A program made the position numbers and the translations under genes. The notes under the pieces were generated by a model. That model was not told the origin of the DNA, did not search any database, and saw only the letters and a program-made list of their open reading frames with translations. Positions 38,792 through 55,949 of a stretch of 64,000 nt of DNA are shown one piece after another; the stretch's first letter is position 1; each line of letters opens with the position of its first letter. This stretch comes from Arthrobacter sp. FW306-2-2C-D06B (GTDB taxonomy: Bacteria > Actinomycetota > Actinomycetes > Actinomycetales > Micrococcaceae): NCBI RefSeq assembly GCF_021789175.1, contig NZ_CP084560.1, forward strand, positions 744,001 to 808,000, written 5' to 3'.

Positions 38792-38879
38792 TCTCGGCAG
38801 GATGTCGAGTGGCTGGAGCCCGGATGCGCCAGCCAAAAGAAGGCTTTCACCTACACCCGTCAACCGGATCGAGTGCCAA

Positions 38880-39782
38880 TTGAGTGAAACTACGACAGTC
38901 GAGTCCCGGACTCCCGTAAGGTCCGTGGGCGGACGTGCGTCGAGCTGGGCCAAGCGAGGCAGGGCCTGGGCGTACAAGCGATCAGGGACGGTCCTCGCCG
39001 TCGTCGCCGCCGGCATCATTGTGGGACTCCCGCTTGCGGCGATCTTTCTCCATCTTCCCCAAAACCCCTTGCAGCCGGACGTGGAGTCCATGGCCCTGGC
39101 CCCCAACTCCGTTCATTGGTTCGGCACGGACGGCAACGGAATGGATGTGTTCTCCCGGACGATTGAATCGGCGAGGCTGGACCTTCCCATTTCGCTGGCG
39201 GCGACGGCTATTGCCCTTGTCATCGGCGTTCCCTTGGGCCTGTTCGCCACTACCGGCTTGGCCGGCGAAACGATCATGCGGGTAGTTGACGCTTTCGCCG
39301 CGCTCCCCATCATCGTGATTGCCGTGGTGTCCATCCAGCTCATGGGCGGCGGAGCCACCGATGTCATCCTCGCCATCGCCCTGGTTGCGGCTCCACGCTT
39401 TGTTCGCTTGTCCCGTGCAGCGGCGATTTCGCTCCGCTCGTCAAGGTACGTCGAGGCGGCGGTGGCCATCGGATGTTCGCCGATCCGTGTGGCCTTCAAC
39501 CACATCTTCAGGAACGCCTACGGTGTGATCCTCGTGCAGGCCACGCTGACCACTGCCGGCGCCTTGAGCACGATTGCCGCCTTGAACTTCCTCGGCGTCG
39601 GGGTCAAACCTCCCCAGCCAAGCTGGGGCGCGATGATCGAAGACGGCGTCAGCATGCTCATCCGTGGCCAGTGGTGGGCCGTGGCCTTTCCCGCGCTGGC
39701 CCTCCTCCTGGTCATTGGCTCGCTCAACATCATTGCCGGTGCGATCGAGAACACGATGGAACGAGTGGAGCACACCCGATGA
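38880..39782 (+). CDS. Peptide/nickel-type ABC transporter permease (DppC-like)
   Basis: A 300-residue permease from the TTG at 38880 (protein begins SETTTVESRTP); an ATG at 38802 in the same frame has no ribosome site, so the start is uncertain. Six hydrophobic segments, FGTDGNGMDVFSR, and the family EAA region AAVAIGCSPIRVAFNHIFRN support DppC type. It forms the importer with 39779, 40672, 41481 and the lipoprotein at 44330. The probable cargo is the catabolised ureide or amide rather than a peptide. Confidence 0.88.
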   Translation: MSETTTVESRTPVRSVGGRASSWAKRGRAWAYKRSGTVLAVVAAGIIVGLPLAAIFLHLPQNPLQPDVESMALAPNSVHWFGTDGNGMDVFSRTIESARLDLPISLAATAIALVIGVPLGLFATTGLAGETIMRVVDAFAALPIIVIAVVSIQLMGGGATDVILAIALVAAPRFVRLSRAAAISLRSSRYVEAAVAIGCSPIRVAFNHIFRNAYGVILVQATLTTAGALSTIAALNFLGVGVKPPQPSWGAMIEDGVSMLIRGQWWAVAFPALALLLVIGSLNIIAGAIENTMERVEHTR

Positions 39783-40669
39783 ACAAGACCCTCCAAGTCC
39801 GGGAACTCGAAACCGAGTTCCACACCCCCCGGGGTGTGGTCCGGGCATTGCTCGGCGTTTCCTTCGAGGTGCAGGACAACGAGATCGTGGGGATCGTCGG
39901 CGAATCCGGATCGGGCAAATCGACGGTGGTCCGTTCCATCACGAAGTTGTTGATGCCGCCGGGCAAGGTGTCCGCCGGCAACGTTACCTTCGCTGGCCGA
40001 AGCCTCTTGGAACTGCCCGAACGGGAGATGCGCCAAATCAGGGGAAAGGACATCGGATTCATTGCCCAGAATCCATTCAGCGCCCTGAATCCGGTGACCC
40101 GCATCGAAAAGCAGTTTGCCAATATCGCCAAGGCGCACGGAGTGAAGGTGGATGCCTCCGAGCGCAGCCGTGCACTGCAGCTGTTGGAATCGACTGGAGT
40201 CCGCGATCCGGAACGCGTCATGCGCGGTTATGCGCACGAACTCAGCGGCGGCATGGCCCAGCGCGTCGTCATCGCCATGGCGCTTTACCTCAACCCGCAG
40301 CTGGTGATCGCCGACGAGCCGACGACGGCGCTCGACCTCACCGTCCAGCGCCAGGTCCTTGATACCCTTCGCCGACTGACGGTCGAGAGCGGCCGCTCGA
40401 TGCTGATTGTGACCCATGACCTCGGGGTGGTGGCCGCATACTGCAACCGCGTGCTGGTCATGTACCGCGGAAATATCGTGGAACAAGGACTCGTTGACGA
40501 CGTTTTCGTCCGTCCACAGCATCCCTACACGATCTCCCTGCTCAACTCGGTGGTGCGTCCCGAAGACGAGACGCCCTACGTGCCAGGGAGCGCTGAAGCA
40601 CCGGATACCGCGGAGCCGGAAACGCCGGACCCCTCTAAGGTCCAATTGTCCGAAGCCCGGAGGTCTTGA
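39779..40669 (+). CDS. Oligopeptide-type ABC transporter ATPase (DppD-like)
   Basis: A 296-residue ABC ATPase. Walker A GESGSGKST (about residue 43), Q-loop FIAQNPFSALNP, signature LSGGMAQR, Walker B LVIADEPTTALD, H-loop VTHDLG. The C-terminal ARPQHPYT-type motif reads VRPQHPYTISLL, typical of Opp/Dpp ATPases. It overlaps the permease by four bases. It acts with the DppF-like ATPase that follows. Confidence 0.93.
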   Translation: MNKTLQVRELETEFHTPRGVVRALLGVSFEVQDNEIVGIVGESGSGKSTVVRSITKLLMPPGKVSAGNVTFAGRSLLELPEREMRQIRGKDIGFIAQNPFSALNPVTRIEKQFANIAKAHGVKVDASERSRALQLLESTGVRDPERVMRGYAHELSGGMAQRVVIAMALYLNPQLVIADEPTTALDLTVQRQVLDTLRRLTVESGRSMLIVTHDLGVVAAYCNRVLVMYRGNIVEQGLVDDVFVRPQHPYTISLLNSVVRPEDETPYVPGSAEAPDTAEPETPDPSKVQLSEARRS

Positions 40670-40671
40670 AA

Positions 40672-41484
40672 ATGCCGCTCCTTGAACTCGTGGATGTCAC
40701 GAAGATCTTCCGAACCCCCCATGGAGAAGCACGCGCCGTAGATGGAATTACCCTGTCCGTGGAAGCCGGCGAGACACTCGGCATCATCGGCGAAAGTGGT
40801 TCCGGCAAGTCAACGCTCGGCCGCCTGGTCCTGAGGCTGACCGAGCCGGATTCCGGATCCGTCGTCATCGAAGGGCAGGACGTGTTAGCCCTCGGCCGTG
40901 GCGAACTCCGCCGCAAGCGGCGCCATTGGCAGATTGTCTTCCAGGAACCCTTCGCGTCATTGAACCCGCGCCTGACGATCCGGCAGATCGTCGAGGAGCC
41001 GCTCATCGTCGCCCGGATGGGGAGCCGGGCCGAGCGGCGGTTGCGGGTCCTGGCGACCTTGGAAGAAGTCGGCCTCTCCGCTGACTTCATGGACCGGCGC
41101 CCCGCGAACCTGAGCGGGGGGCAGCAACAGCGCGTAGGAATCGCACGCGCCCTGGTCACGAATCCCAGCCTGGTGGTCCTGGACGAACCAACGTCCTCGC
41201 TGGACCTGACCATCCGGGCCTCGATCCTGCGCACCCTCGCGCGACTCAGGGCTTCCCGGGGCCTCACCTATGTATTCATTTCGCATGACATCGAAACTGT
41301 GCGGCATTTCTGTTCCACCGTGGCTGTCATGCATCGCGGCAAAATCGTCGAGGTCGGCCCCACCCAGGACGTCTTGATGGCGCCGCAGCACCCTTATACC
41401 CAGTCGCTCATTTCCGCCGCATTGCCGGTGGTTCCCTATTCCGCCGTCGTTGGCACCACGAATTCCCAGGGGCAGATTTCATGA
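40672..41484 (+). CDS. Oligopeptide-type ABC transporter ATPase (DppF-like)
   Basis: A 270-residue ABC ATPase. Walker A GESGSGKSTLGR, Q-loop IVFQEPFASLNPRL, signature LSGGQQQR, Walker B LVVLDEPTSSLD, H-loop ISHDIE, then MAPQHPYTQSL. The ATG at 40672 lies 8 bases after CGGAGG; a TTG two codons upstream overlaps the previous stop. Together with the DppD-like protein it forms the heterodimeric motor of the importer. Confidence 0.93.
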   Translation: MPLLELVDVTKIFRTPHGEARAVDGITLSVEAGETLGIIGESGSGKSTLGRLVLRLTEPDSGSVVIEGQDVLALGRGELRRKRRHWQIVFQEPFASLNPRLTIRQIVEEPLIVARMGSRAERRLRVLATLEEVGLSADFMDRRPANLSGGQQQRVGIARALVTNPSLVVLDEPTSSLDLTIRASILRTLARLRASRGLTYVFISHDIETVRHFCSTVAVMHRGKIVEVGPTQDVLMAPQHPYTQSLISAALPVVPYSAVVGTTNSQGQIS

Positions 41485-42542
41485 TCCGCTACATCATTTC
41501 AAGGCTCCTCATCGCAGCCTTACTGCTGTGTGGCCTCATCACCCTCAGTTTTGGCCTGGTTTCGCTCCTTCCCGGCGACCCCGCGGTGGCCCTCCTGGGT
41601 GAATACGCAACCCCGGCAGACATCGCGCGAATCCACGCGGAACTTGGCCTGGACCTGCCTTTCTGGGAACGCTACCTCGGCTACATGTCCAGAACGCTGA
41701 GCGGTGACCTTGGCCATTCCCTCTTCACCGGCAGTTCGGTATCCAGCGAAATCCTGACCCGGCTCCCCAATACCTTGATCTACTTGGTGCCAGGGCTCGC
41801 CCTGGCCCTCATTATCGGCATGGCGAGCGGCACGTTCGCGGCCTATCGCTACCGACGCTTTGCCGACAAGGCCTTCACCTTCTGGATATCCATCCTGATG
41901 GCCATGCCGGAATTCGTGCTGGCCCTCTTGTTGCTGTTTGTCTTCTATCAACAACTGCGCATCGCGCCCGCACCGATCGGCATGCTCTCCAGCGCGCAAA
42001 TCACTCCACCGCACGTCACGGGGTCAATCCCTCTTGACGCGATAATTGCCGGCCAGTGGGGAACGTTTTCGTCCATCCTCGGCCGCGCCGTCCTTCCTAT
42101 CGTGACCATGGGCTTGTTCTTCGCTGCCCCGTTCGGAAAGACAGTGCGCTCAGGACTATTGCAGGTGCTCCAATCACCACAAATCGAGTTTGCGAGGGCC
42201 TGCGGCCTGCGTCCCGGCCAGGTCTTCCGGTATGCCCTCAGCGACATTCGCGGGTCACTCATGACCTACTTGGTACTTCTTTTTGCCGCGTCCCTCAGCG
42301 GAGCGGCCATTGTCGAAAGTGTCTTTTCCTGGCCTGGAGTGGGCGGTTGGTCGCTCGACGGCGTGCTCAAAGGCGACGTGCCCGTCATTCAAGGCTTTGT
42401 CCTCATCATGGGATCCACAAGCTTGCTCGGCTATGTCATTCTCGACGCCTTGATAACCCTTCTGGACCCCCGTACGCGCCGCAAAGCCGTGGCCGGACGC
42501 CGTCAGCGGCGCCTGGGCGCAATCCCGGCAGCCAACTCCTAA
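41481..42542 (+). CDS. Peptide/nickel-type ABC transporter permease (DppB-like)
   Basis: A 353-residue membrane permease. It starts with the DppB-like MIRYIISRLLIAALLLCGLITLSFGLV and has the IHAELGLDLPFWERYLGYMSR segment. The EAA region is IEFARACGLRPGQVFRYALSDI, and VESVFSWPGVGGW lies near the end. The ATG overlaps the DppF-like stop. The gene order C-D-F-B is a rearranged version of the usual dpp order. Confidence 0.93.
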   Translation: MIRYIISRLLIAALLLCGLITLSFGLVSLLPGDPAVALLGEYATPADIARIHAELGLDLPFWERYLGYMSRTLSGDLGHSLFTGSSVSSEILTRLPNTLIYLVPGLALALIIGMASGTFAAYRYRRFADKAFTFWISILMAMPEFVLALLLLFVFYQQLRIAPAPIGMLSSAQITPPHVTGSIPLDAIIAGQWGTFSSILGRAVLPIVTMGLFFAAPFGKTVRSGLLQVLQSPQIEFARACGLRPGQVFRYALSDIRGSLMTYLVLLFAASLSGAAIVESVFSWPGVGGWSLDGVLKGDVPVIQGFVLIMGSTSLLGYVILDALITLLDPRTRRKAVAGRRQRRLGAIPAANS

Positions 42543-42570
42543 GAAGCCCTTAGCCGCCTCCCGAGAACTC

Positions 42571-42603
42571 TTGACAGATATCTCCCGACTTCAATAGATT
42601 GAA
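42571..42603 (+). promoter_or_regulatory. Promoter with overlapping dyad; probable leaderless start
   Basis: TTGACA at 42571-42576 is followed 17 bp later by ATAGAT (42594-42599), a plausible -10. The expected start of transcription falls at the ATG of 42607. The perfect dyad TTCAAT-AG-ATTGAA (42590-42603) covers the -10, so a bound regulator would block it. Confidence 0.5.
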
Positions 42604-42606
42604 GAT

Positions 42607-43431
42607 ATGTTCACTAAAGTTCATGAAGATAAAGTTATCGCCCTCGGTGGAACCATTCCGCTCGACGGCCGCGTGAGCTGGGTACCGGCCGGAGCGACCG
42701 GCTTCCAACCGTCGAATTGCTATCTCCTCAGTGAGGGCTCCGGCAGGCTGCTGGTCGACACCGGACTCGCAGTCCACAGCCAGGAGATCCTCGATGACCT
42801 GGTTGAGCTGCTTGGCGACGACGGCCGGCTCTCCATGTTTTTCACGCGGAGCGAGATGGACTGCGTTTCGAACCTGGAACCTATTGCCGGGAAATTCGAC
42901 ATCGAGCGCCTCTTCACCGGTGGCGCCATCAACCCCTTCGATGCATTCGATGACCTCAGCCGTCTCGCGCTCCGAGGCCGTCGGCAGCAGATCGACCAGA
43001 AGGGAGAGGGCGGGGATTCCATGGCCCGCACTCCCGAGATCGAGGTGGCACCGGGCAGGCACTTGACCATCGAGTCACCGCTCCTGCGGCTCCTCCCGAC
43101 CTTCTGGGGGTGGGACGCGAATACCGGAACCATCTTCACCTCCGATACCTTCACCCACGGCACCATGACAAGCCCGGACGGTTCCCGCATCATTGACTCC
43201 CTCGCCGAGGACACCACCACCGCCAAGCAGGTCGCGGAGCACCTCTACGCGAAATACGAGTGGATCCCACGGGCCACGTGCGAGCCGCTTCGGGAATGGC
43301 TCTCTGACAAGTTCGAGACTCTGGCCCCCGAAACCATCGCCCCTTCCCGCGGCTGCGTGATCCGCGGGGGCGAGCTCGTCCGCCGGCACCTTGATTTCAT
43401 GCTCGCAGCGTTGGCGCCGGAAAAGGCATAG
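42607..43431 (+). CDS. Flavodiiron-like metallo-beta-lactamase homologue lacking metal ligands (pair A, member 1)
   Basis: A 274-residue protein with the MBL-fold order of flavodiiron-type domains: SNCYLLSEGSGRLLVDTG, then a degenerate metal motif. Family members read H-x-E-x-D-H; here it is T80-R81-S82-E83-M84-D85-C86. Later, HWPD becomes RLLPTF, SDTFTHG keeps Asp, and the final APSHG His is Arg (APSRG). So all His ligands are lost while Glu and Asp persist. A dozen residues preceding APGRHLTIES form a charged insertion. It lies directly before the better-preserved partner, suggesting a heteromer. Catalysis by this subunit is unlikely. Confidence 0.72.
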   Translation: MFTKVHEDKVIALGGTIPLDGRVSWVPAGATGFQPSNCYLLSEGSGRLLVDTGLAVHSQEILDDLVELLGDDGRLSMFFTRSEMDCVSNLEPIAGKFDIERLFTGGAINPFDAFDDLSRLALRGRRQQIDQKGEGGDSMARTPEIEVAPGRHLTIESPLLRLLPTFWGWDANTGTIFTSDTFTHGTMTSPDGSRIIDSLAEDTTTAKQVAEHLYAKYEWIPRATCEPLREWLSDKFETLAPETIAPSRGCVIRGGELVRRHLDFMLAALAPEKA

Positions 43432-43441
43432 GAGAATCCCC

Positions 43442-44257
43442 ATGGAAGAACTAGTAGAAACTATGAGCCGCGACCTTCCGCGTGAGGTAGCCGAGGGCGT
43501 CACCTGGATGAGTTCGTGCCTGCCGTTCCACCTCCAGGACCGCGTGATCCACGGGCACACGTCCACGTATCTGGCACAAGGGACCGAGTCGTCAATCCTC
43601 ATTGACACGGGCAACCCCTCCAGCTGGAACATCATTTCGGAAACCCTTGACGGGTTGCTCGGGGACAAGCCCCTCAGCTACGTCTTCCCTACGCATCCCG
43701 AGCTTCCACACACGGGAAACCTTCCCCGCCTCGTCGAGAAGTACCCCGACATCAAGGTTGTCGGCGACATCCGGGACTACCACCTCTTTTACCCGCAAAT
43801 CGTGCCCAACCTTCACTCCCGGGTTCCCGGGGACAAGGTGGATCTCGGCGGCGGATATGAATTCGTGATCGTCGAGGCGATGATCAGGGACCTGCCGAAT
43901 ACCCAGTGGGGCTTCGTACCGAAGTCGGGCGTGCTTTTCACGGCCGACGGCTTTTGCTACATGCACCGCCCGGAACTCGATGATGAGGATCCGGTGCACC
44001 TCCCCGGCGAATGCGGCCTGACAACAGATGAGCTCTCGGCACCCATTGCGGTCGAGAACGCTGCCTTCTTTACCGGCAGCGCGTTGTACTGGGCCAGATT
44101 CGCCAACGACGCCGACCAGGTTTATGACCGGGTCGGCAAGCTGATGGATGACCTTGGGGTCAAGATCGTAGCGCCCACCCATGGCAACGTGATCACCAAT
44201 ATTCCGGAGGTGGCGCCCATCATCCGGGCCGGCCACAAGCGCGCCTACCGTTACTAA
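43442..44257 (+). CDS. Flavodiiron-like metallo-beta-lactamase-fold protein (pair A, member 2)
   Basis: A 271-residue MBL-fold protein. YLAQGTESSILIDTG is followed by the metal motif P83-T-H85-P-E87-L-P-H90-TGN, matching the flavodiiron H-x-E-x-D-H except that Asp is Pro. The later His of HWPD is replaced (RDLPNT), TADGF keeps Asp, and the closing APTHGN keeps His. A metal site in altered form is likely. No flavodoxin domain is fused. The ATG follows AGGAG, 10 bp after pair member 1. Hydrolase or oxygen-handling roles are both possible; the substrate is unknown. Confidence 0.78.
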   Translation: MEELVETMSRDLPREVAEGVTWMSSCLPFHLQDRVIHGHTSTYLAQGTESSILIDTGNPSSWNIISETLDGLLGDKPLSYVFPTHPELPHTGNLPRLVEKYPDIKVVGDIRDYHLFYPQIVPNLHSRVPGDKVDLGGGYEFVIVEAMIRDLPNTQWGFVPKSGVLFTADGFCYMHRPELDDEDPVHLPGECGLTTDELSAPIAVENAAFFTGSALYWARFANDADQVYDRVGKLMDDLGVKIVAPTHGNVITNIPEVAPIIRAGHKRAYRY

Positions 44258-44329
44258 TCCACTGCCACATCAGCAGCGCACTACTCGTAACACATCCTTT
44301 CCCTCTGTACAGAAATTGGAACCAGGCTT

Positions 44330-45922
44330 ATGAAGAATTCGCGTTTATTGCTCGGCTGGGTTGCAGCCGCGGCAGCTGTGTCGCTTACCGGATGCGGGGG
44401 AGCCACTCCCACCGCGGCCGTGGCCAAGCCGGAGTCGGTCGTCATCGCAGTCGGCGCCCTCCCCGACAGTCTCACCCCGGCCCCGTGGGGCGGTAGTGCA
44501 TCGCATGTGGTGCTCAGCGGCCTCGGTTCCCAGTTGCTGGAGTACAAAACCGGCGCGAGCGATGACCAATCATGCTCGACGCCGTCTACCGCGGTCACCG
44601 GTCGGCTTGCCGAAAGCGCGGTAGCCGCACCAGACGGCAAGGGGGTCATCGTCAAGCTGCGGAAGCTGACAAGCCAGTTTGGAAACACCCTCTCGGCCGA
44701 GGACGTGAAATGGAGCCTGGCGATCGGCATGGTGCGGCAGCCTGTCATGAAGGGCACGCTCAAGAGCAGCGGATTCAACGTGGACAACCTCGTCACCGTG
44801 ATCGATGACCGCACTGTTGAACTCAACACCTTGGGGATGACGTCATACACGCTCGAGTCACTGCAGAACAATCTCTTCTACATCCACGACAGCAAAGAAG
44901 CGAAGCTTCACGTCACGCCGGATGACCCCACGGCCAACAAGTGGCTCTCGAAGAACCTGGCCGACTACAGCGGTTGGAAGCTCGAGGAGTTCACTCCCGG
45001 CACGTCCCTTACGGTGACCGCGGACCCGAACTGGGGAGGCGATCGAGGCTCGGTAAAGCGGGTTGTGGTCAAGGCCGTTCCCGACACTGCCACCCGGACC
45101 CAGTTGGTGAAGACCGGCGAGGCCCAGATTGCCAACGGCTTCGAATATGACAAATACAGCTCCATGACCGGTGTCAGTGGGGTCAGCGTCCTCAAGTGCA
45201 CCAGCCAGACCCGCGACACCATGATGTTCAACACGAAGACCGGTCCTTTGGCAGATGAGAAGGTCCGCCAGGCAGTTTCCATGGCGATTGACCGGGCCGC
45301 CCTTGCCAAGGGCGCCTACGCCGGCCTCGCGGACCCTGCGGGCTCTATCTTCCCCACGGTGAAGGATTCGTCCACCTACAAATACGACCCTGACGGAGCC
45401 AAGAAGCTGCTGGCGCAGACCCAGTACGCGAACGGGTTCCCCTTGACGCTCAGCTACAGCGTGAGCCGCCCTGGCCCCGTCGCGAAGAGTTCAGCCGTCC
45501 TCATCCAATCCATGCTGGCGAAGGTGGGTATCACGGTGCAGCTGTTGAACGTGGCGAGCCCGACCGACTTCTCTTCAGCGCTCATCGACGGCCGCTTCCA
45601 AGCCGTCCTGTACTCCGAGCCGATTGTCATCGCCGACCCAGCCTTCTACACCTACGCGTTCTACTCCACCGGAGCTCCGAGCAACAGCACCGGATGGTCC
45701 AATCCTGAATTCGATGCCACTCGGACCCAGCTGGCGGCCACCCCGAGCACGAACACGGACCAGCGGGCGGCCCTGCTCAAGAAGATGGCTGGATTGGTGG
45801 ACCAGGGAGCCCCGATTCTCTCCTTGGTGCAGGTCCGCAACTTGATCGTCAAGCAGGACACCCTGACGGGTGCGGTACCGCTCACCAACGACCAGGTCTA
45901 TTTCGCCGGTCTGGGCAAGTAG
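44330..45922 (+). CDS. ABC transporter substrate-binding lipoprotein (SBP_bac_5, DppA-like)
   Basis: A 530-residue extracellular binding protein of the peptide/nickel family. Signal peptide with lipobox SLTGC. Family segments include ADEKVRQAVSMAIDRAALAKGAYAG and YDPDGAKKLLAQTQYANGFPL. It is the binding component for the importer encoded at 38880-42542, from which it is separated by the first MBL pair. It ends before the isochorismatase gene, with a 105-bp gap. Confidence 0.92.
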   Translation: MKNSRLLLGWVAAAAAVSLTGCGGATPTAAVAKPESVVIAVGALPDSLTPAPWGGSASHVVLSGLGSQLLEYKTGASDDQSCSTPSTAVTGRLAESAVAAPDGKGVIVKLRKLTSQFGNTLSAEDVKWSLAIGMVRQPVMKGTLKSSGFNVDNLVTVIDDRTVELNTLGMTSYTLESLQNNLFYIHDSKEAKLHVTPDDPTANKWLSKNLADYSGWKLEEFTPGTSLTVTADPNWGGDRGSVKRVVVKAVPDTATRTQLVKTGEAQIANGFEYDKYSSMTGVSGVSVLKCTSQTRDTMMFNTKTGPLADEKVRQAVSMAIDRAALAKGAYAGLADPAGSIFPTVKDSSTYKYDPDGAKKLLAQTQYANGFPLTLSYSVSRPGPVAKSSAVLIQSMLAKVGITVQLLNVASPTDFSSALIDGRFQAVLYSEPIVIADPAFYTYAFYSTGAPSNSTGWSNPEFDATRTQLAATPSTNTDQRAALLKKMAGLVDQGAPILSLVQVRNLIVKQDTLTGAVPLTNDQVYFAGLGK

Positions 45923-46027
45923 CAAACCCTGTGAAGCACATGGTTCTGGCCGGCGGGAAACCGTCGGCCAGAACTGACCCGACCCCAGATCCGCTTTGAC
46001 CCCGGATCCGCTTGAAGGAAGAAAGCC

Positions 46028-46702
46028 ATGATTGAAATCTGCGGCAAACCCGTCCGCGACACCCTCGAGGAACTGCTCGACCCCACCACCACCGCCTTGG
46101 TCGTCATCGACATGCAGGTAGGGGCTGTTTCGCACGGAGGCGCAATTGGGGATTCCGGGCATGACATGAGCATGATGCCGTCCGTTGTCGAAAAGTGTGG
46201 TCGCGCCATCGCCGCGGCCCGTGCCAACGGGGTGCCGGTTTTCCACATCCGCGTCGAGAACCTTCCCGACGGGGCAAGCTCGCCGGCGGCCTGGCTGCGT
46301 GCCCTGTACACCGCAGCGAACGGTCGCCCCATCGACCTCGGCAAGCTCAGTGCCAAAGGCGACCCCGCGACGGAGTTTTGCGAACCCTGCATGCCCGAAG
46401 ACGGGGAAGTCGTGATCACCAAGCGACGCCCCAGCGCCTTCATCGCGACGGAACTCGCCTTGCTGCTCCGCAGCCAAGGGATTGAATCGGTGGCCCTCGT
46501 GGGCGTTTCCACCGGTGGCTGTGTGGAAGCAACCCTGCGCGACGCCGTGCACAACGACTTCTACGCCGTGCTGTTCGAGGATGCTGTGGGAGCGTACGAC
46601 ACGGTGGTGCACGACGCCGCGTTGACCGTCATGCGGGCCCGGCACGACGTCTGCACGCTCGACGAAGCCATCGCGGTCTGGGAGACAGCCAGCGCCTCCT
46701 GA
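46028..46702 (+). CDS. Isochorismatase-family cysteine amidohydrolase
   Basis: A 224-residue cysteine hydrolase. The catalytic triad is visible: Asp28 in VVIDMQ, Lys132 in VITKRRPSAF, Cys165 in STGGCVEATLRDA. The cis-peptide-forming Gly-Gly precedes the Cys region. Relatives include N-carbamoylsarcosine amidase, ureidoacrylate amidohydrolase and nicotinamidase; an N-carbamoyl or amide substrate fits the cluster. The ATG follows GGAAGAAAG. It sits between the two MBL pairs. Confidence 0.9.
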   Translation: MIEICGKPVRDTLEELLDPTTTALVVIDMQVGAVSHGGAIGDSGHDMSMMPSVVEKCGRAIAAARANGVPVFHIRVENLPDGASSPAAWLRALYTAANGRPIDLGKLSAKGDPATEFCEPCMPEDGEVVITKRRPSAFIATELALLLRSQGIESVALVGVSTGGCVEATLRDAVHNDFYAVLFEDAVGAYDTVVHDAALTVMRARHDVCTLDEAIAVWETASAS

Positions 46703-46731
46703 ACCATCCGGATCCAAGGGAAGGAGCGAAA

Positions 46732-47457
46732 ATGGGCGGTTTGTTGAGCGGCCGGATCCACCGGCTCAGCGGCGACATCGAACTGGATGAGCGCGTGAGC
46801 TGGTGCCCGCCTGGCGTCCGGCGTACGCAAGCGGTGAACTGCTACTTGATCAAAGGGCCGTCCGGTTCAGTACTCGTGGACACCGGCATTCGCCTTCATC
46901 AGGACGACATCATCGAACGGCTTGACCGGGTGCTCTCACCCGGAGAGCCGCTATCCATTGTCCTCACCCGGACCGAAATGGAATGCTGCCTCAACATCCC
47001 GGCCATTGAGGAGCACTTCGCGGTTGGCTCGGTCTGGTACACAGGCGGAATCACGGTGCCTCGTTCGAAGGCCGAATCCAAGCGGATTGCCGTGGATCCG
47101 GGGACATCGAAGCGTGTGGAAGTGCTTGACGGCGTCGTCGTCGAACTCGTCTCACCGCTGCTCCGGCTCCTGCCGACGCTTTGGGTGTTCGATCCGGAAT
47201 CCGGCGGGCTGCTGACCTCCGATGCGTTTACCCACGGCGGGAGCGCCGGGCCTGAGACCCGCGAGGGACTCCGGAAATTCCGCTGGTTCACAGGGGCGGA
47301 TACCAGCCCGATCGCCCGGAACATCAGGGACATCTTCCGTGACCGCGATGTCCGCGCCATCGGTCCCGGCTATGGAGCTCCCTTTATTGGCATGGACAAG
47401 TGCCTTGAACAGGCAGGGGAGCTGGCGCGGGCAATTGAGGAAATGGGTATCCAGTGA
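46732..47457 (+). CDS. Flavodiiron-like metallo-beta-lactamase homologue lacking metal ligands (pair B, member 1)
   Basis: A 241-residue paralogue of the 42607 gene. RVSWCPPGVRRTQAVNCYLI and SVLVDTGI match it. The metal motif is T79-R80-T81-E82-M83-E84-C85, so Asp is also changed to Glu. SPLLRLLPTLW and LLTSDAFTHGG correspond to the paralogue. The terminal His is Tyr (GPGYGAP). The metal site is therefore lost. The ATG follows AAGGAG. The downstream partner starts at a GTG overlapping its stop, which again indicates tight coupling. Confidence 0.72.
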   Translation: MGGLLSGRIHRLSGDIELDERVSWCPPGVRRTQAVNCYLIKGPSGSVLVDTGIRLHQDDIIERLDRVLSPGEPLSIVLTRTEMECCLNIPAIEEHFAVGSVWYTGGITVPRSKAESKRIAVDPGTSKRVEVLDGVVVELVSPLLRLLPTLWVFDPESGGLLTSDAFTHGGSAGPETREGLRKFRWFTGADTSPIARNIRDIFRDRDVRAIGPGYGAPFIGMDKCLEQAGELARAIEEMGIQ

Positions 47458-48287
47458 GTGAGGGTCCAGTGAAGCACGATGCAGTCGAACTCCGATGGCT
47501 TGCCGAAGGAACCTACTGGTTGGGTGGCTGCCTGTCGGCCAACGCCCAGGGGCAGGAAGTCCACTATCACGTCTCCTCCTATCTGCTGGTGGGATCCAAA
47601 GCGACGCTCTTGGTAGACACAGGGGATCCGGCTCACCGCGCCCTCCTTCTCGCCCAGCTGGAATTGGTTCTCGGTGAACGCCCCTTGGATTATGTCTTCC
47701 CGACCCATCCAGAGATCCCGCACGCCGGGAACCTGCCCGCCCTGCTGGACAAGTACCCCGGGGCGATCGTGGTGGGGGACGTCCGTGATTACCACCTGCA
47801 TTTCCCCGAATACCGCTCCAGGTTCAGGACCCAGGCGGCCGGAAGCCGGATCGACCTCGGCGATCGGGAGTTCCGATTCCTTCCGGCCTTGATCCGGGAC
47901 CTGGAGAACACGCTGTGGGGCCACGACGACGGAGCCCGGATGATGTTTGTTTCGGACGGCTTCTCCTTCATCCACGATGTTCCCGCAGCGGGCGGGGCAG
48001 CAGAGGACGACGACGAACCCGTCCACCTTCCCGGCCAATGCCGCTTGTTGTCCGGCGAGATGCCGCAACCTCCCACCGTGGAGCAAGCGGCGTATGGCAC
48101 CGGCCGGGCTCTTTACTGGACGAAGTTCGTGGACGTCAGCGATGCCTTCGACGGCATTGAAGCGCTACTGGACACGCTTCCCACGAAGCTGATCGGCCCG
48201 GCCCACGGCAACGTGATTGACGACGTCGACGGGATGCTCAGGACGTCACTGGCCGCGCACAGGAAGGTCTACGCGGAAGGCCACTGA
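47454..48287 (+). CDS. Flavodiiron-like metallo-beta-lactamase-fold protein (pair B, member 2)
   Basis: A 277-residue paralogue of the 43442 gene. SYLLVGSKATLLVDTGDP and PTHPEIPHAGN carry His85, Glu87 and His90, again with Pro in place of the ligand Asp. RDLENTLWG, VSDGFSFIHDV and the closing GPAHGNVIDD match pair A. The GTG start overlaps the previous stop; a second GTG at 47469 is possible. Conservation of the same odd motif in both copies argues for retained function. Confidence 0.78.
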   Translation: MSEGPVKHDAVELRWLAEGTYWLGGCLSANAQGQEVHYHVSSYLLVGSKATLLVDTGDPAHRALLLAQLELVLGERPLDYVFPTHPEIPHAGNLPALLDKYPGAIVVGDVRDYHLHFPEYRSRFRTQAAGSRIDLGDREFRFLPALIRDLENTLWGHDDGARMMFVSDGFSFIHDVPAAGGAAEDDDEPVHLPGQCRLLSGEMPQPPTVEQAAYGTGRALYWTKFVDVSDAFDGIEALLDTLPTKLIGPAHGNVIDDVDGMLRTSLAAHRKVYAEGH

Positions 48288-48305
48288 TTGTATAGTGAAG
48301 TTTGA

Positions 48306-48319
48306 TTCAATATAATGAA
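48306..48319. promoter_or_regulatory. Island operator motif upstream of PuuE-like gene
   Basis: TTCAATATAATGAA is a near-perfect dyad (TTCAAT / AATGAA) following a TATAGTGAAG element at 48291-48300. It lies between pair B and the PuuE-like gene. Shared with four other promoter regions of the island. Confidence 0.5.
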
Positions 48320-48373
48320 TTTGAGATGCAGCGCTTCGATTTGAGAGCGCGGCGAACGGCAAGGAGTGAGTCA

Positions 48374-49297
48374 ATGCGAGACCTCATTGGATACGGGGAA
48401 AATCCCCCGGTCGTGACGTGGCCGAATGGTGCCAAGGTGGCCATCTCCATGGTCATCAATTACGAGGAAGGCGCGGAGAGCTCGATAGAAGCCGGTGACG
48501 AAAGCGATGAAGACGTCACGATTTTCGGTGGCTGGTCTTCGGATCCGGGCCGGCGGAGCCTGATGAAGGAATCCTTCTTCGAGTACGGCAGCAGGGTAGG
48601 CATCTGGCGCTTTTTGGCTTTGCTCCGGGACTACGGCGTGCCCGCGACATTCATGGCTTGCGGTGTCGCCCTGGAACGGAACCCCGAAGCCGCCCATGCG
48701 ATCGTTCGCGATGGACACGAGATTTGCGCGCACGGCTACAAATGGCGGGGAACCGTCGGAATGACTCCGGCCGAAGAACTGGCCGAAATCCGCGCCTGCG
48801 TCGCGGCGATCGAGGGAGTCTCGGGTGTCCGGCCTGTGGGTTGGTACGTCCGCGAAGGAATCACGGAGAACACCCGCGCGATCCTCAAGGGTGAGGGCTT
48901 TCTGTATGACTCCAATTCCTATGCCGACGACCTGCCGTATTTCGTGTCCGCCGGAGAATCCCGCCACCTTGTGGTCCCTTACTCGGGCGACACCAACGAC
49001 GCGAGGTTCTGGGGCCCGGGAAGCCTCGGGACAGCAGATGACTTCTTCAATGTACTGAAGGACAGCCTCGACTGCCTTCTGATCGAAGGGGAAACCGTAC
49101 CCAGGATGATGTCCGTAGGAGTGCACTTGCGCATCGGCGGGCGGCCCAGCGTCGCCTTGGGAGTCAGGCGCTTCCTTGAGTATGCCCTCTCCCGGAATGA
49201 CGTCTGGTTCGCCACAAGGGAGGAAATTGCCCGGTGGTGGATCGCCAACCCGCCTGCTGCCGGCCAGCTCGAAGCAGCGTACGAAGGCCGCGTGTGA
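48374..49297 (+). CDS. PuuE-like polysaccharide deacetylase-family hydrolase
   Basis: A 307-residue NodB-fold protein of the allantoinase PuuE type: DLIGYGENPPVVTWPNGAKVAISMVINYEEGAE at the N-terminus, FFEYGSRVGIWRFLALLRDYGVPATF, and VRDGHEICAHGYKW carrying the His pair. These proteins hydrolyse C-N bonds in ureides or related cyclic amides rather than polysaccharide. The ATG at 48374 follows AAGGAG; the frame is open upstream to 48302. A paralogue lies at 51926-52873. Confidence 0.87.
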   Translation: MRDLIGYGENPPVVTWPNGAKVAISMVINYEEGAESSIEAGDESDEDVTIFGGWSSDPGRRSLMKESFFEYGSRVGIWRFLALLRDYGVPATFMACGVALERNPEAAHAIVRDGHEICAHGYKWRGTVGMTPAEELAEIRACVAAIEGVSGVRPVGWYVREGITENTRAILKGEGFLYDSNSYADDLPYFVSAGESRHLVVPYSGDTNDARFWGPGSLGTADDFFNVLKDSLDCLLIEGETVPRMMSVGVHLRIGGRPSVALGVRRFLEYALSRNDVWFATREEIARWWIANPPAAGQLEAAYEGRV

Positions 49298-49326
49298 CCA
49301 CGTCAATGCCGGGAGGAAGGACTCCG

Positions 49327-49728
49327 ATGGCCACGGATATTTCGCGGTTGGTCCACAACGTCAACGAACAGGGCTTCACGGCGCTGGAGAAGACTGGACT
49401 TCTTGGACAGCAGGACCAAGGCCTCGTCTCCACGCTCATCTCGCGTGACCTGAGCGGATCCGACGACCTATGCGTCAGTTGGGGCCGGATCCTCCCTGGA
49501 CAACATCACCTATGCCATCACCATCCCGATGCCTCCGAGTTCTACGTTGTCATTTCGGGTGCGCCCCTCGTCCATTTGGGCGACACCGAGTACCGGGCCA
49601 AGCCTGGGGACGGCATCTACATTCCCCGGGGCACCACCCATGGCATCACCAACGACGGCGACGAAGACGTCAACTTGGTTGTCGGCGTCAGCAAGCCCGC
49701 CGACTGGCAGTTCGTGGCGGACGAGTGA
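49327..49728 (+). CDS. Single-domain cupin
   Basis: A 133-residue cupin. Metal motifs: GQHHLCHHHPDASEFYVVISG (motif 1, several His and a Glu) and PGDGIYIPRGTTHGI (motif 2). It may bind a metal and isomerise, decarboxylate or dioxygenate an intermediate, or act as a sensor. The ATG at 49327 follows GGGAGGAAGG. Its stop overlaps the next ATG (TGATG), coupling it to the aldolase. Confidence 0.85.
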   Translation: MATDISRLVHNVNEQGFTALEKTGLLGQQDQGLVSTLISRDLSGSDDLCVSWGRILPGQHHLCHHHPDASEFYVVISGAPLVHLGDTEYRAKPGDGIYIPRGTTHGITNDGDEDVNLVVGVSKPADWQFVADE

Positions 49729-50471
49729 TGGCGACGTCGTCGCTGGTCCGGCAGGTCGGACTCATCACGGCCGAGCCGACCCCCTCCCTGTTGTCCGTGG
49801 TTGCCTACCGAAACCTGGATTTCGTGGTCCTCGACGCAGAGCAGACAACGCTGACGCTGCAGCAATGCGCCGATGCGGTGCAGCGGCTGTCAGGCGCCAA
49901 TACCCGGGTCGCCGTCCGTGTCCCTGAACTTGATGACATGACATTGGTAGCGTTCGCCAACACCGGCGTGGACGAGATTGTGCTCCCCAGGGTGCGGCAT
50001 CCGAAAGAACTTGAACGTGCCTACCGGGCGACGCGGTTCGGCCCCCTTGGGTTCCGCCCGAAACAGGCTTCGTTCGCGTCGGCGTTCGGAGCGGACTATT
50101 CGCTGGAGCCCCGGCTGACGGTCCTATTTGAGACGGTGGAAGCGGTCGACGCCGTCGAAGACTTCCTGGCGTTGGAGTGCTTCGACGGCGGCTGGGTGGG
50201 TCCCACGGACCTTGCTGGCGAACTGCTGAAACAGGGGAGGCCCGGAGCGGTCGCGCTCGAGGAATGCGTTCAGCGGGTCGTCGACGTCCTCGGCGCTGCC
50301 GGCCAAAGCGTGGGCCTTCCCGCAGCCAACATTGCCAGTGCCGGTGATGTCCATGCCCGGGGCGCCGATCGCGCCGCGGTGTACTGGGAGCGGGAGCTTG
50401 CCTCGATGATCGCGCACCTGGCTGCCGCCGCCGCTCCGGAGACGCGCGTGACGAGGTGTGACTCCCCGTGA
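49728..50471 (+). CDS. HpcH/HpaI-type aldolase/citrate lyase-family protein
   Basis: A 247-residue TIM-barrel aldolase of the HpcH/HpaI family. FVVLDAEQT, VRVPELDD, IVLPRVRHPKELERA, LFETVEAVDAVEDFLAL (metal Glu) and GGWVGPTDLAGEL (metal Asp) are present. It would cleave or form a pyruvate- or oxaloacetate-derived C-C bond late in the pathway. The usual catalytic His near the N-terminus is not obvious. It is coupled to the cupin. The XRE-cupin regulator follows after a 150-bp promoter region. Confidence 0.82.
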   Translation: MATSSLVRQVGLITAEPTPSLLSVVAYRNLDFVVLDAEQTTLTLQQCADAVQRLSGANTRVAVRVPELDDMTLVAFANTGVDEIVLPRVRHPKELERAYRATRFGPLGFRPKQASFASAFGADYSLEPRLTVLFETVEAVDAVEDFLALECFDGGWVGPTDLAGELLKQGRPGAVALEECVQRVVDVLGAAGQSVGLPAANIASAGDVHARGADRAAVYWERELASMIAHLAAAAAPETRVTRCDSP

Positions 50472-50560
50472 AAATGAACCGCGTGGTTCTTCTGCGGCGC
50501 TGCCGATGCTGGCATGCTGTGACGATGAAGTCAGGCTCGACGCCGGAGCATCCTGCCAGG

Positions 50561-50600
50561 ATTCTTCGTTTAGTTGACGATTCTTCGATATACTGATGAG
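50561..50600. promoter_or_regulatory. Promoter of XRE-cupin regulator with island motif
   Basis: ATTCTTCG occurs twice, 19 bp apart (50561 and 50580). The second copy runs into TTCGATATACTGAT (50584-50597). TATACT at 50589-50594 is a good -10. Autoregulation by the downstream regulator is inferred. Confidence 0.5.
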
Positions 50601-50623
50601 TGCTGGAACACTGAGGAGCTGTA

Positions 50624-51241
50624 TTGGGAAGCACGGAAGTTGTTAAAGTCGACGACGATGACACTCTGCACCGCAACCTGTGGATCACCCATTTGGGCGC
50701 CATGCTCAAGGAACAGCGTGCCGGGCGATTCACTGTTGAGGAATTGGCGGACCGGGCCGGGGTGAGCGCCGGATTGATTAGCCAGATCGAGCGCGGCATC
50801 GGTAATCCGTCATTCGCCACGCTCCTTCGCCTGGCTAATTCCCTCGGTGTGCCGCTGGCGAGCATGTTTACCGACCCCAGCGAGACGCAGAACCACATGC
50901 TGGTGCGCCGGGCCGATCGCCGCCGCATTGAGATTCCTTCCCAGGGAATCGTCATGGAACTGATCGTGCCCGATGCGGACAGGAAGCTTGGGGTCATCAA
51001 CATGACCATCCCGGCGCATTTCGACGGCGCGGAGGTTCCGCATTCGCACGAAGGTGAGGAATGCGTCGTGGTCCAGACCGGCACGCTCGTGGCGAGTGTC
51101 GGCGGGCAGGAATTCACTTTGGGCGAGGGCGACAGCCTGACCTATGACGCCACGCTGCCGCATTGGTGGAGCAACCTCACGGACACCGCCGCAGTCATGG
51201 TGGCAATCTCGACGCCGCCGTCCCTGGGTAAATCCCATTGA
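50624..51241 (+). CDS. XRE-family regulator with C-terminal cupin domain
   Basis: A 205-residue regulator. The N-terminal helix-turn-helix (about residues 20-80) has FTVEELADRAGVSAGLISQIERGIGNPSFATLLRLANSL, and a C-terminal cupin (GAEVPHSHEGEECVVVQTG, FTLGEGDSLTYDATLPHWW) probably binds a metabolite. The TTG start at 50624 follows GAGGAG. The family controls catabolic genes such as putrescine or amino-acid use. It is the best candidate to bind the TTCRATA dyads across this island. Confidence 0.9.
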   Translation: MGSTEVVKVDDDDTLHRNLWITHLGAMLKEQRAGRFTVEELADRAGVSAGLISQIERGIGNPSFATLLRLANSLGVPLASMFTDPSETQNHMLVRRADRRRIEIPSQGIVMELIVPDADRKLGVINMTIPAHFDGAEVPHSHEGEECVVVQTGTLVASVGGQEFTLGEGDSLTYDATLPHWWSNLTDTAAVMVAISTPPSLGKSH

Positions 51242-51963
51242 CGAGCCGCCCGCCCGGCCCGTCGTCCCGCTTGGGAATGCTCGTGCCGTCGTCGAACTCC
51301 AACGCGGAGTCCCTGACGGCCGACATCCTGGCCGGATCGCCCGACGTCGGCGTCCACTACAGCCGCTTCCGGCTCCCGGCGGACCTCGATGACCGCATCG
51401 ACGCGACGGTTCTCGGCGACGCGCCGTTCCTGCTCGGCGATGCCGAGCTGGATGCCATCGCGTTCCACGGAACGTCGGGATCCTGGACCGGCCTCGGAGG
51501 CGACCGGGCACTCGCGGAATCATTGACTGAGGCCACCGGCGCGTCGGCCACCACCGCGTCCCTCGCGCTTGTTGCCGCCCTGGAGGCGCTCGACGCCGGC
51601 CGGGTCGCCGTCGTTTTCCCCGGCCCCCCGGGCATCATGGCACTTATTGAACATGAGTATGCGGCCAACGGCCTGGAAGTAGTCCGCTCCTCGGTGCCCG
51701 CGAGGTCAATGTCCAACCCGGAGATCTCGCGAATGTCCGGCGCGGATATCGGCGCGCTCATGAGGCCTGCCTTTGGCTCCGACATTGACGCGGTGGTCTG
51801 TATCGGGACGAACCTTCGCTCCGCGTATCTGGCGGCCGGGTTCGAATCCGAATTCGGCGTGCCCGTCGTCGACAGCGCAACAGCCACGCTGTGGCAACTC
51901 CTCCAACTGGCCGGAACCGCGCGCCCTATCCCTGGTTGGGGTGCGTTGCTCGCCGGCGCTTAG
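51238..51963 (+). CDS. Asp/Glu racemase/maleate isomerase-family protein lacking catalytic Cys
   Basis: A 241-residue member of the Asp/Glu racemase superfamily, closest in layout to maleate isomerase and arylmalonate decarboxylase (LVPSSNSNAESL at the N-terminus). The two catalytic Cys positions read FHGTSGS (Gly78) and CIGTNLRS (Gly190) where active enzymes have CTSxS and CTNLR. Racemisation by the two-Cys mechanism is excluded as seen. A Cys188 two residues before is nearby. The TTG overlaps the regulator stop. Its 3' end overlaps the convergent PuuE-like gene by 38 bp. Confidence 0.78.
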   Translation: MTSRPPGPSSRLGMLVPSSNSNAESLTADILAGSPDVGVHYSRFRLPADLDDRIDATVLGDAPFLLGDAELDAIAFHGTSGSWTGLGGDRALAESLTEATGASATTASLALVAALEALDAGRVAVVFPGPPGIMALIEHEYAANGLEVVRSSVPARSMSNPEISRMSGADIGALMRPAFGSDIDAVVCIGTNLRSAYLAAGFESEFGVPVVDSATATLWQLLQLAGTARPIPGWGALLAGA

Positions 51964-52873
51964 GGCTCGTATTCAGCAGCCAAGCCTCAACGATCTGCGA
52001 ACGAGTTGCGATCCACGCCGAATTCTTGCCCGCGTGGGACAAGAAGGTGTCCAGGGCGGCGGCGTAGGCAGGGCGGCCTATGAGGCGCGGGTGCAGGCCT
52101 ACGCTCATGACGGAGGGGCCGGGCCGGTTGTCAGTGAGCATCATGTCCAGCGTGCCGCACAATTGGCGGGCGAAAGCGGTTGCCGTGGGGAACTGCCTGA
52201 AGAGTCCGGAGTCGTTGGTGTCACCCGCGTAAGGCAAGACTGGCAACCCTGCTCCGTCCTTCCCTGCGTTGTCTATTCCGGTTCCAAAATGAGGCAAGTC
52301 ATCGTTGAAGCTATTGGACTCATAGATGAATCCAGTGGCGGCGAGAATGTCCCGCGTATCCGGGTTGAGTCCGTCGCGGGAGTACCAGCTCGTGGGCGGA
52401 ACGCCGGTGCTCCTGGCGATGGAATCGCGGGACGCGGTAATAAGCGCGCGTTCCTCCTCGGGAGCGAGTCCGGCGTGGGTGTCCCAGTTGTAGCCGTGGT
52501 CGGCAATTTCGTGGCCATCCCTGACAAGCGCAGCCGCGATTTGGGCGTTTTGCTCGAGTGCCGTGGCGCAGCAGAAGGCAGTTGCCCTAACGTCGTGGCG
52601 CCTCAGGGTGCGCAGCACCCGCCAGATGCCTGCCCTGGATCCGTATTCGAAAGCCGATTCCAGTGTGAGATTCCGGGCGGTGGGGTGGGCCGGGTGCTTG
52701 ATCCAGTGGGCTCCAAGATCGTCCGCGGGGCCTCCGCGCGCGATGCTGCGCTCGGCTCCGTCTTCGACATTGATCACCAGGGACAAGGCGACGCGTGCGC
52801 CCCCGGGCCAGCGGAACTCCGAGGGGTGCTCGCCGTAGCCCACGAAATCCCGGGTGGTGGAAGGGACGGACAC
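51926..52873 (-). CDS. PuuE-like polysaccharide deacetylase-family hydrolase (second copy)
   Basis: A 315-residue NodB-fold protein, paralogue of the 48374 gene: DFVGYGEHPSEFRWPGGARVALSLVINVEDGAE, SAFEYGSRAGIWRVLRTLRRHDVRATAF, and VRDGHEIADHGYNW with the metal-type His. The GTG at 52873 follows AGGAGA by eight bases. A hydrolase for a ureide or cyclic amide is likely; the two copies may act on successive or stereoisomeric substrates. It is divergent from the amidohydrolase at 52942. Confidence 0.86.
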   Translation of the reverse strand: MSVPSTTRDFVGYGEHPSEFRWPGGARVALSLVINVEDGAERSIARGGPADDLGAHWIKHPAHPTARNLTLESAFEYGSRAGIWRVLRTLRRHDVRATAFCCATALEQNAQIAAALVRDGHEIADHGYNWDTHAGLAPEEERALITASRDSIARSTGVPPTSWYSRDGLNPDTRDILAATGFIYESNSFNDDLPHFGTGIDNAGKDGAGLPVLPYAGDTNDSGLFRQFPTATAFARQLCGTLDMMLTDNRPGPSVMSVGLHPRLIGRPAYAAALDTFLSHAGKNSAWIATRSQIVEAWLLNTSPKRRRATHPNQG

Positions 52874-52893
52874 AGTGGAATCTCCTCTGTGGT

Positions 52894-52921
52894 TATAGTG
52901 AAGATACTTCGATATCATGAA
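52894..52921. promoter_or_regulatory. Island operator motif between PuuE-like and amidohydrolase genes
   Basis: TATAGTGAAGATACTTCGATATCATGAA contains the dyad GAAG-ATA-CTTC and the motif TTCGATATCATGAA (52908-52921) in a 68-bp divergent gap. It shares TATAGTGAAG with the site at 48.3 kb. Confidence 0.55.
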
Positions 52922-52941
52922 CATAATCGATAGGGAGTCGA

Positions 52942-54330: not shown

Positions 54331-54515
54331 GCGGGCAGCTGACCCCTGAGCAGTCCGCGCTACTCATCGAGCTGGTTGGCGAGGTCATCCAGCAGGAGGA
54401 CGCTGCCGCCGTCGAACGCTCATTCAGTGACTTTCAGCGCGGCATGGCAGTGTTGAGGACCGATTTCGACCCCCGACGTTTGCAGGCAGCCCCCGGAGGT
54501 GGCGCGAATGACTGA
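54327..54515 (+). CDS. Small GatC/AtzG-like amidase partner
   Basis: A 62-residue protein starting at GTG (overlap GTGA with the amidohydrolase stop). Helix-forming sequence TPEQSALLIELVGEVIQQEDAAAVERSFSDF is followed by a Pro/Gly-rich tail. It overlaps the amidase start by 8 bp. Small GatC-like subunits such as AtzG sit directly upstream of their amidase (AtzE) and wrap around it. Position, size and composition fit that role; sequence similarity is too short to be certain. Confidence 0.6.
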   Translation: MSGQLTPEQSALLIELVGEVIQQEDAAAVERSFSDFQRGMAVLRTDFDPRRLQAAPGGGAND

Positions 54516-55890: not shown

Positions 55891-55949
55891 GTCGTAGTAG
55901 CCGTGAACTTTGTCACATAAGCTACTAAGAGAGTAGGAAGAGGTTGGCG

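Follow-up and report, generated by a model that had tools for sequence, protein, structure and literature searches.

The window examined here, a stretch of 64,000 nucleotides (G000 C1:744001-808000, in the single contig of the 4.56 Mb genome of Arthrobacter sp. FW306-2-2C-D06B), carries two pairs of adjacent genes, A and B, whose products have the metallo-beta-lactamase (MBL) fold. Each pair combines a protein that looks metal-competent (type 2) and a partner in which the metal-binding histidines are consistently replaced by arginine and the carboxylates are retained (type 1). The explanation that we favor, and that we consider about evenly balanced between right and wrong, is that each pair makes up one heteromeric enzyme, likely hydrolytic, that acts on an imported substrate.

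Two pairs of MBL-fold proteins

42607-43431, + strand: A1, type-1 (metal-ligand-poor) MBL-fold partner, 274 aa
43442-44257, + strand: A2, type-2 (metal-competent) MBL-fold protein, 271 aa
46732-47457, + strand: B1, type-1 partner, 241 aa
47454-48287, + strand: B2, type-2 protein, 277 aa, with a GTG start that overlaps the B1 stop

A1 and A2 are separated by 10 bp, with a ribosome-site-like GGAG stretch within the gap, and B1 and B2 overlap by 4 bp. A reading of the sequence alone had described them as two tandem copies of a module. The two pairs are there, but they are not recent duplicates: A1 and B1 are 31% identical and A2 and B2 42%, and type 1 and type 2 share around 24-29% (139 to 257 columns). 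No further copies of either type were found in the genome beyond A and B. The genome contains 14 PF00753 matches, three of them within the pairs; the remaining 11 all lie more than 50 kb from one another, which rules out chance adjacency.

The proteins show the alpha-beta-beta-alpha arrangement of the MBL fold. The Pfam Lactamase_B model clearly recognizes A2 and B2 (45.2 bits for B2), reaches B1 just at its cut-off and scores A1 below it (15.8 bits). The best PDB match by profile is an FprA-type flavodiiron protein (FDP; 2ohh, 2e-19), and FprA-type or stand-alone ODP proteins are also the best match by fold. A2 and B2 stay under the cut-off of the Pfam ODP model (PF19583; 17.1 and 16.6 against 27.2 bits), which is passed by some of their relatives: the Agrobacterium type 2 (34.8), the second gene of the Natrinema pair (34.0) and the first gene of the Paracoccus pair (38.1). 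Pfam detected no flavodoxin domain in A2, which ends at 271 aa, or in B2 (277 aa), and a single MBL domain only in each.

Ligand residues of the two types

The motifs read in the four proteins bear out those initially proposed. A1 has T-R-S-E-M-D-C and closes with S-R-G, B1 has T-R-T-E-M-E-C and G-Y-G, A2 has T-H-P-E-L-P-H and T-H-G-N (also D150, D169 and H247) and B2 has T-H-P-E-I-P-H and A-H-G-N. Neither type carries the canonical MBL motif (HxHxDH plus closing His), type 2 having HxExPH and type 1 RxExD/EC. In an alignment with FprA as the reference, the type-2 residues H85, E87, H90, D169 and H247 occupy five FDP ligand places, and P89 and D150 replace the two others. In FDP numbering the five are H79, E81, H84, D166 and H227, with P89 standing for D83 and D150 for H147.

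These residues are highly conserved in the 77 type-2 proteins (A2, B2 and 75 relatives). D150, D169, H175, H186, C191 and H247 are present in all of them, and H85, E87 and H90 in 76 each (one gap). The Pro for Asp that had been noticed in both copies recurs as P89 in 73, the rest being three Ala and one gap. The FprA-type set HxExDH...H...D...H is therefore not found in this family, since Pro or Ala takes the place of its Asp and Asp, in 77 of 77, that of the His that follows HxExDH. H186 and C191 are constant in this set, yet not in all distant relatives. Among 11 comparison proteins, ten have the canonical FDP ligand set and the eleventh (L073) is another MBL protein. The sequence-only reading had also seen a loss of the His of the HWPD motif. 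A1 and B1 indeed have Leu there (after Arg), but in type 2 the residue was not simply lost, as A2, B2 and all their relatives in the set have Asp instead.

Type 1 has constant residues of its own. In 89 proteins (A1, B1 and 87 relatives), the ligand places are occupied by R80, E82, D/E84, C85, L146 (which follows R145) and D164; R80, E82 and D164 are invariant, and C85 and R145 occur in 88 each. Across 13 type-1 proteins from different phyla, R80, R145 and D164 are invariant, E82 nearly so, and D/E84 and C85 are variable. The closing residue is Tyr in 76, His in 11, Arg in one and Met in one. The change of the closing His put forward for type 1 thus holds for A1 (Arg) and B1 (Tyr) but is not a rule. 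The missing ligands suggest that type 1 carries no metal, and a salt-bridge core standing in for it would fit the exchange of His for Arg. In haloarchaea and Paracoccus, both members of the pair have H-x-[DE]-x-P-H, both Asp and the closing His, and both look metal-competent. The idea that one member is always degenerate consequently applies to most bacterial pairs but not to these.

Distribution of the pairs

In the samples searched, homologues do not usually occur singly: 62 pairs (56 distinct) were found in 40 loci, with no unpaired member above 30 bits, in agreement with the conserved adjacency that had been predicted. A type-1 query of genome contigs recovered 18 loci, from Arthrobacter, Sinomonas, Microbacterium, a Microbacteriaceae metagenome-assembled genome and Amycolatopsis. 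In the family sample, the type-2 query matched 9 of 245 genomes, six at full length and three partially (at most 34 bits); type 1 is present in the same six. In the phylum sample, 134 of 396 genomes were matched, but only G000, G289 and G343 at full length; the others score at most 83 bits, and the ten of them that were checked carry the FDP ligand set in its canonical form. In the family of G343, 3 of 146 genomes were matched. Type 1 adjoins the full-length type 2 in 6/6, 3/3 and 3/3 cases of these samples, respectively, that is, in all ten distinct genomes (G000 and G343 recur between samples).

The type-2 query matched 18 plasmid records, 13 of them with a query coverage of 80% or more: one each from Arthrobacter, Rhodococcus and Agrobacterium, three from Roseomonas and seven from haloarchaea. 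Paracoccus comes next at 76%. Neighbourhoods were inspected in 15 of the 18: a second MBL-fold gene adjoins in each of the 14 just named, and the fifteenth, an 81-bit match on an Acetoanaerobium plasmid, is an FDP-size frame without a partner. The type-1 query matched six plasmid records, all with an adjoining type 2; they are the same six bacterial records in which the type-2 query had met a degenerate partner. Gene order flips, type 1 being first in Actinomycetota and type 2 in Roseomonas and Agrobacterium, but adjacency is kept. A metal-competent member thus stands beside a ligand-poor one in all bacterial pairs fetched except Paracoccus.

The module is patchy in the genus, as none of the 17 further genomes of the genus listed in the family sample has it. 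This absence, together with the occurrence of both pairs on the 1.0 Mb megaplasmid of Arthrobacter sp. StoSoilB13 (L129, NZ_AP024649.1), makes the island look mobile. The type-2 proteins are annotated as plain "MBL fold metallo-hydrolase", and the type-1 partners are easily overlooked: 72 of the 87 relatives have no precomputed Pfam domain, four plasmid type-1 proteins, including those of Roseomonas and Agrobacterium, are labelled "hypothetical protein", and no Pfam model matches that of Agrobacterium at E-values up to 0.01.

History and selection

In a tree built from 89 proteins, the 39 rows of type 1 (support 100/99) and the 39 of type 2 (93/96) form separate groups. Each group contains one clade of A members, one of B members and the same set of distant lineages. 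These matching splits show that the divergence of the two types predates that of A and B and that the pair was duplicated as a unit; the order of the deep forks is unresolved, and several branches are long. Pairs A and B have changed their relative arrangement in L021 and in the Amycolatopsis loci L022 and L023, each pair remaining intact. When the haloarchaeal and Paracoccus pairs are added, the family splits from ten FDPs, the sole outgroup (100/100). Grouping type 1 with the second haloarchaeal and first Paracoccus genes lowers the log-likelihood by just 0.45 (approximately unbiased test, p-AU 0.483), so the ancestor of type 1 may possibly have been a metal-competent subunit in a more ancient pair.

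The ratio of non-synonymous to synonymous substitution rates (dN/dS) was computed with an in-house script (Nei-Gojobori with Jukes-Cantor correction) against five Arthrobacter loci (L007, L008, L009, L010 and L012). It ranges from 0.027 to 0.082 for A1 and from 0.104 to 0.164 for B1 (five comparisons each), from 0.021 to 0.041 for A2, from 0.057 to 0.144 for B2, and from 0.030 to 0.068 for the isochorismatase-fold gene between the pairs. Type 1 is maintained by selection, as had been supposed from its replacement residues.

Gene neighbourhoods

The two pairs are embedded in the following genes of the window:

38802-42542, + strand: Opp/Dpp-type ATP-binding cassette (ABC) importer, two ATPases between two permeases, with its end 64 bp before A1
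44330-45922, + strand: substrate-binding protein SBP_bac_5 (Pfam, 185.9 bits), directly after A2
46028-46702, + strand: isochorismatase-fold cysteine hydrolase, directly before B1
48302-49297, + strand: PuuE-like polysaccharide-deacetylase-family hydrolase (307 bits against an equivalog cut-off of 424.6), directly after B2
49324-51963, + strand: cupin, HpcH/HpaI-type aldolase, XRE-cupin regulator and EutA/arylmalonate-decarboxylase-like protein (profiles and synteny)
51926-52924, - strand: second PuuE-like hydrolase (profile match)
52942-55890, + strand: PhnM-like amidohydrolase and amidase (profiles and synteny), end of the conserved island

Pfam supports both permeases of the importer and the ATPase at 40666; the ATPase at 39773 was recognized by translation and synteny only. 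The nearest models to the cysteine hydrolase are biuret hydrolase and RutB, both below their equivalog cut-offs. The two PuuE-like hydrolases lie on opposite strands of one island, and both score below the allantoinase equivalog cut-off, so that their substrate may well not be allantoin.

The order permease-ATPase-ATPase-permease-A1-A2-binding protein-cysteine hydrolase-B1-B2-PuuE-like-cupin-aldolase-regulator-EutA-like-PuuE-like (- strand)-amidohydrolase-amidase is conserved in 14 of the 18 loci recovered with type 1, and the island of the window is closest to the Arthrobacter loci. Among these 14, the amidase of L024 would fall beyond the contig end and many genes of L011 are split. Of the other four, L017 has the transporter and binding protein inverted and apart, and L021, L022 and L023 are rearranged. 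The catabolic island proposed initially, with a binding protein and a cysteine amidase flanked by the pairs, is therefore found in the window and in Arthrobacter-type loci, but elsewhere the pairs keep other company.

A transporter neighbourhood is nonetheless found in most lineages. NMT1-type ABC transporters occur near the pairs in both G343 loci and in G753 (Amidohydro_2 in L107 and L119). In G289 the neighbours are Amidohydro_2 and a TRAP system of the DctM/NMT1_3 kind, whereas Natrinema zhouii has a TRAP-TAXI system. Roseomonas, Halocatena, Natrinema salinisoli and Halalkalicoccus carry genes of tripartite tricarboxylate transporters, Paracoccus carries a betaine-type ABC system, and ABC genes lie near two Halobaculum pairs. 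HpcH/citrate-lyase-type enzymes recur in the window, Roseomonas haemaphysalidis and the two Halobaculum; the cysteine hydrolase is shared by the window and R. haemaphysalidis, and leuCD-type genes by R. haemaphysalidis and N. zhouii. This setting suggests that organic acids or their amides are taken up and degraded. Stand-alone Rieske proteins adjoin the pair in the actinobacterial G643 (L118, 8066-8602) and in the haloarchaeon N. zhouii (L126, 5455-5811), and FAD oxidoreductases lie near the Halocatena pair and, together with a ferredoxin, near that of Rhodococcus.

Comparison with known systems

The sequence-only reading knew of no described system of this form, but two such systems exist. 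The first is that of the cyanobacterial FDPs: as described in PMC4390876, Flv3 and Flv4 keep the canonical iron ligands and Flv1 and Flv2 do not, and an Flv2/Flv4 heterodimer is seen by blue native polyacrylamide gel electrophoresis; the same source allows that Flv3 may also form a homodimer and calls the Flv1/Flv3 arrangement unsettled. Motif changes in degenerate class-C FDPs of Synechocystis are stated to prevent metal binding (PMC7785958). The second is INTS9/INTS11, a dimer of an MBL pseudoenzyme and an enzyme in which motif 2 of INTS9 has changed from HxHxDH to NYHC (PMC7980224).

The Flv1/Flv3 and Flv2/Flv4 pairs resemble the present ones in their fold family, their paired genes and the presence of metal ligands in one member and not in the other. 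They differ in that A and B encode single MBL domains, in a transport and catabolic setting, with another competent ligand set. FprA-type and stand-alone ODP proteins share the HxE motif, but type 2 lacks flavodoxin, has HxExPH instead of HxExDH and Asp for the HWPD His, and has H186 and C191 in addition. INTS9/INTS11 and CPSF100/CPSF73 are pseudoenzyme-enzyme heterodimers; they are Beta-CASP nucleases of eukaryotic RNA processing, with C-terminal dimerization domains. UlaG and CmlA, like type 2, have a carboxylate for the fourth metal His, but belong to other subfamilies, and to our knowledge neither has a degenerate partner. The present family would thus work like the Flv and INTS pairs yet belongs to neither, and a search of the open-access PMC literature found no description of it. 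DnfA, also considered, is an unrelated diiron oxygenase (PMC9478400).

Possible functions of the pairs

In the explanation that we favor, the pair would belong to an FDP/ODP-like branch of the MBL fold. It draws on the persistence of the pairing through flips of gene order and rearrangements, the matching A and B clades of both types, the fold, the selection acting on type 1 and the transporters nearby. Type 2 would hold the metal site (H85, E87, H90, D150, D169 and H247, with Pro for the Asp of HxHxDH), and type 1 (R80, E82, mostly D/E84, R145 and D164) would be a partner of the same fold that completes, stabilizes or gates this site. The enzyme would most likely be hydrolytic and catalyze an early step on a carboxylate, lactone, imide or amide imported by the nearby transporter, and pairs A and B would each be used for a different step, or a different substrate, of a single catabolic island. 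We take D150 to be the position of the carboxylate that replaces the fourth His. Such a replacement is reported for MBL proteins that bind Fe and Mn, among them UlaG (a lactonase, Asp184), and also in CmlA (Glu377) and 3BV6 (PMC7846560), which would make Fe or Mn as likely as Zn in type 2. The obligate heteromers proposed from the gene spacing are consistent with these data.

Several observations weigh against this explanation. The apparent competence of both members in haloarchaea and Paracoccus means that co-transcribed sequential enzymes could explain their adjacency. The catabolic neighbours vary by lineage, so that no single substrate fits, and the Rieske or FAD proteins near several pairs hint at redox chemistry. 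The carboxylate argument is weak because FDPs bind iron with His at that position. Finally, the annotation shows no transporter near the Agrobacterium pair, in a stretch of 12.7 kb, or near the Rhodococcus pair, in 16.7 kb, and none was recognized among the five G643 neighbours tested.

A broader hypothesis, to which we give somewhat less credence than to the heteromeric enzyme itself, is that these genes represent an as yet undescribed family of obligate two-subunit MBL-fold enzymes in Bacteria and haloarchaea, carried with transporters and endowed with a new ligand set (HxExPH...D...D...H). In that case, the ancestor would have had two metal-competent subunits, as still in haloarchaea and Paracoccus, and one of them would have exchanged its metal for an arginine-carboxylate core elsewhere, in a series from two sites to one.

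Alternatively, the two types could be sequential proteins, type 2 a metalloenzyme and type 1 endowed with its own metal-free chemistry or binding (Arg80, Arg145, Cys85), and be neighbours by virtue of a shared pathway only. The constant residues of type 1 and the pairs with two catalytic-looking members would suit this scenario. Nevertheless, the pair persists in Bacteria and Archaea alike and in either gene order while the transporter families and pathway genes around it change, so its linkage is judged tighter than pathway co-location, and we regard sequential proteins as distinctly less probable. A redox heteromer comparable to CmlA or Flv1/Flv3, in which a Rieske or flavin protein feeds either a diiron oxygenase or an O2- or NO-reducing FDP-like enzyme, seems more doubtful still. 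The nearest relatives of the proteins by fold and sequence are redox FDPs, PMC7785958 describes a Glu in second position of motif 2 as typical of FDPs, CmlA shares the carboxylate (PMC7846560), and the Rieske and FAD genes mentioned above lie near some pairs. Yet the proteins have no flavodoxin domain, no redox partner is found among the window genes tested (38802-55890), and Pro replaces the motif-2 Asp, unlike in the ten FDPs checked.

An ODP-like sensor pair, reporting oxygen, metal or a ligand to a transporter or regulator, is quite improbable: PF19583, the model of a stand-alone FDP-like domain, matches type 2 weakly and some relatives above its cut-off, and a response-regulator/kinase-like stretch lies past the permeases in L108, but in the plasmid loci with annotation the genes next to the pair include no kinase or chemoreceptor, and A2 and B2 score too low. 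That type 1 is a decaying, functionless duplicate, as its several lost ligands might suggest, is rejected by its dN/dS (0.03-0.16), its constant replacement residues and its place beside type 2 in every bacterial pair fetched save Paracoccus.

If the heteromeric enzyme is real, a type 2 expressed alone may be half an enzyme. The occurrence of pairs with two competent members beside pairs with one would offer a direct test bed for how one subunit of a heteromer turns from an enzyme into a pseudoenzyme, and the ligand set adds a variant to a heavily studied metal site.

Flanking genes

Directly after the island, 55944-58267 encodes a DcuS/DpiB-type sensor kinase and an adjoining frame that may be its response regulator; its signal may be a C4-dicarboxylate. 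In L011 (Arthrobacter sp. Hiyo8, AP014719.1), the same island is present by tblastn with a split or short permB, SBP (substrate-binding protein), A2, B2, PuuE, cupin and EutA-like gene, which looks like base-call errors of the assembly. Upstream of the transporter, on the opposite strand (35252-36676, - strand), lies a dihydropyrimidinase/hydantoinase-like amidohydrolase that is 83-89% identical in several island-bearing loci.

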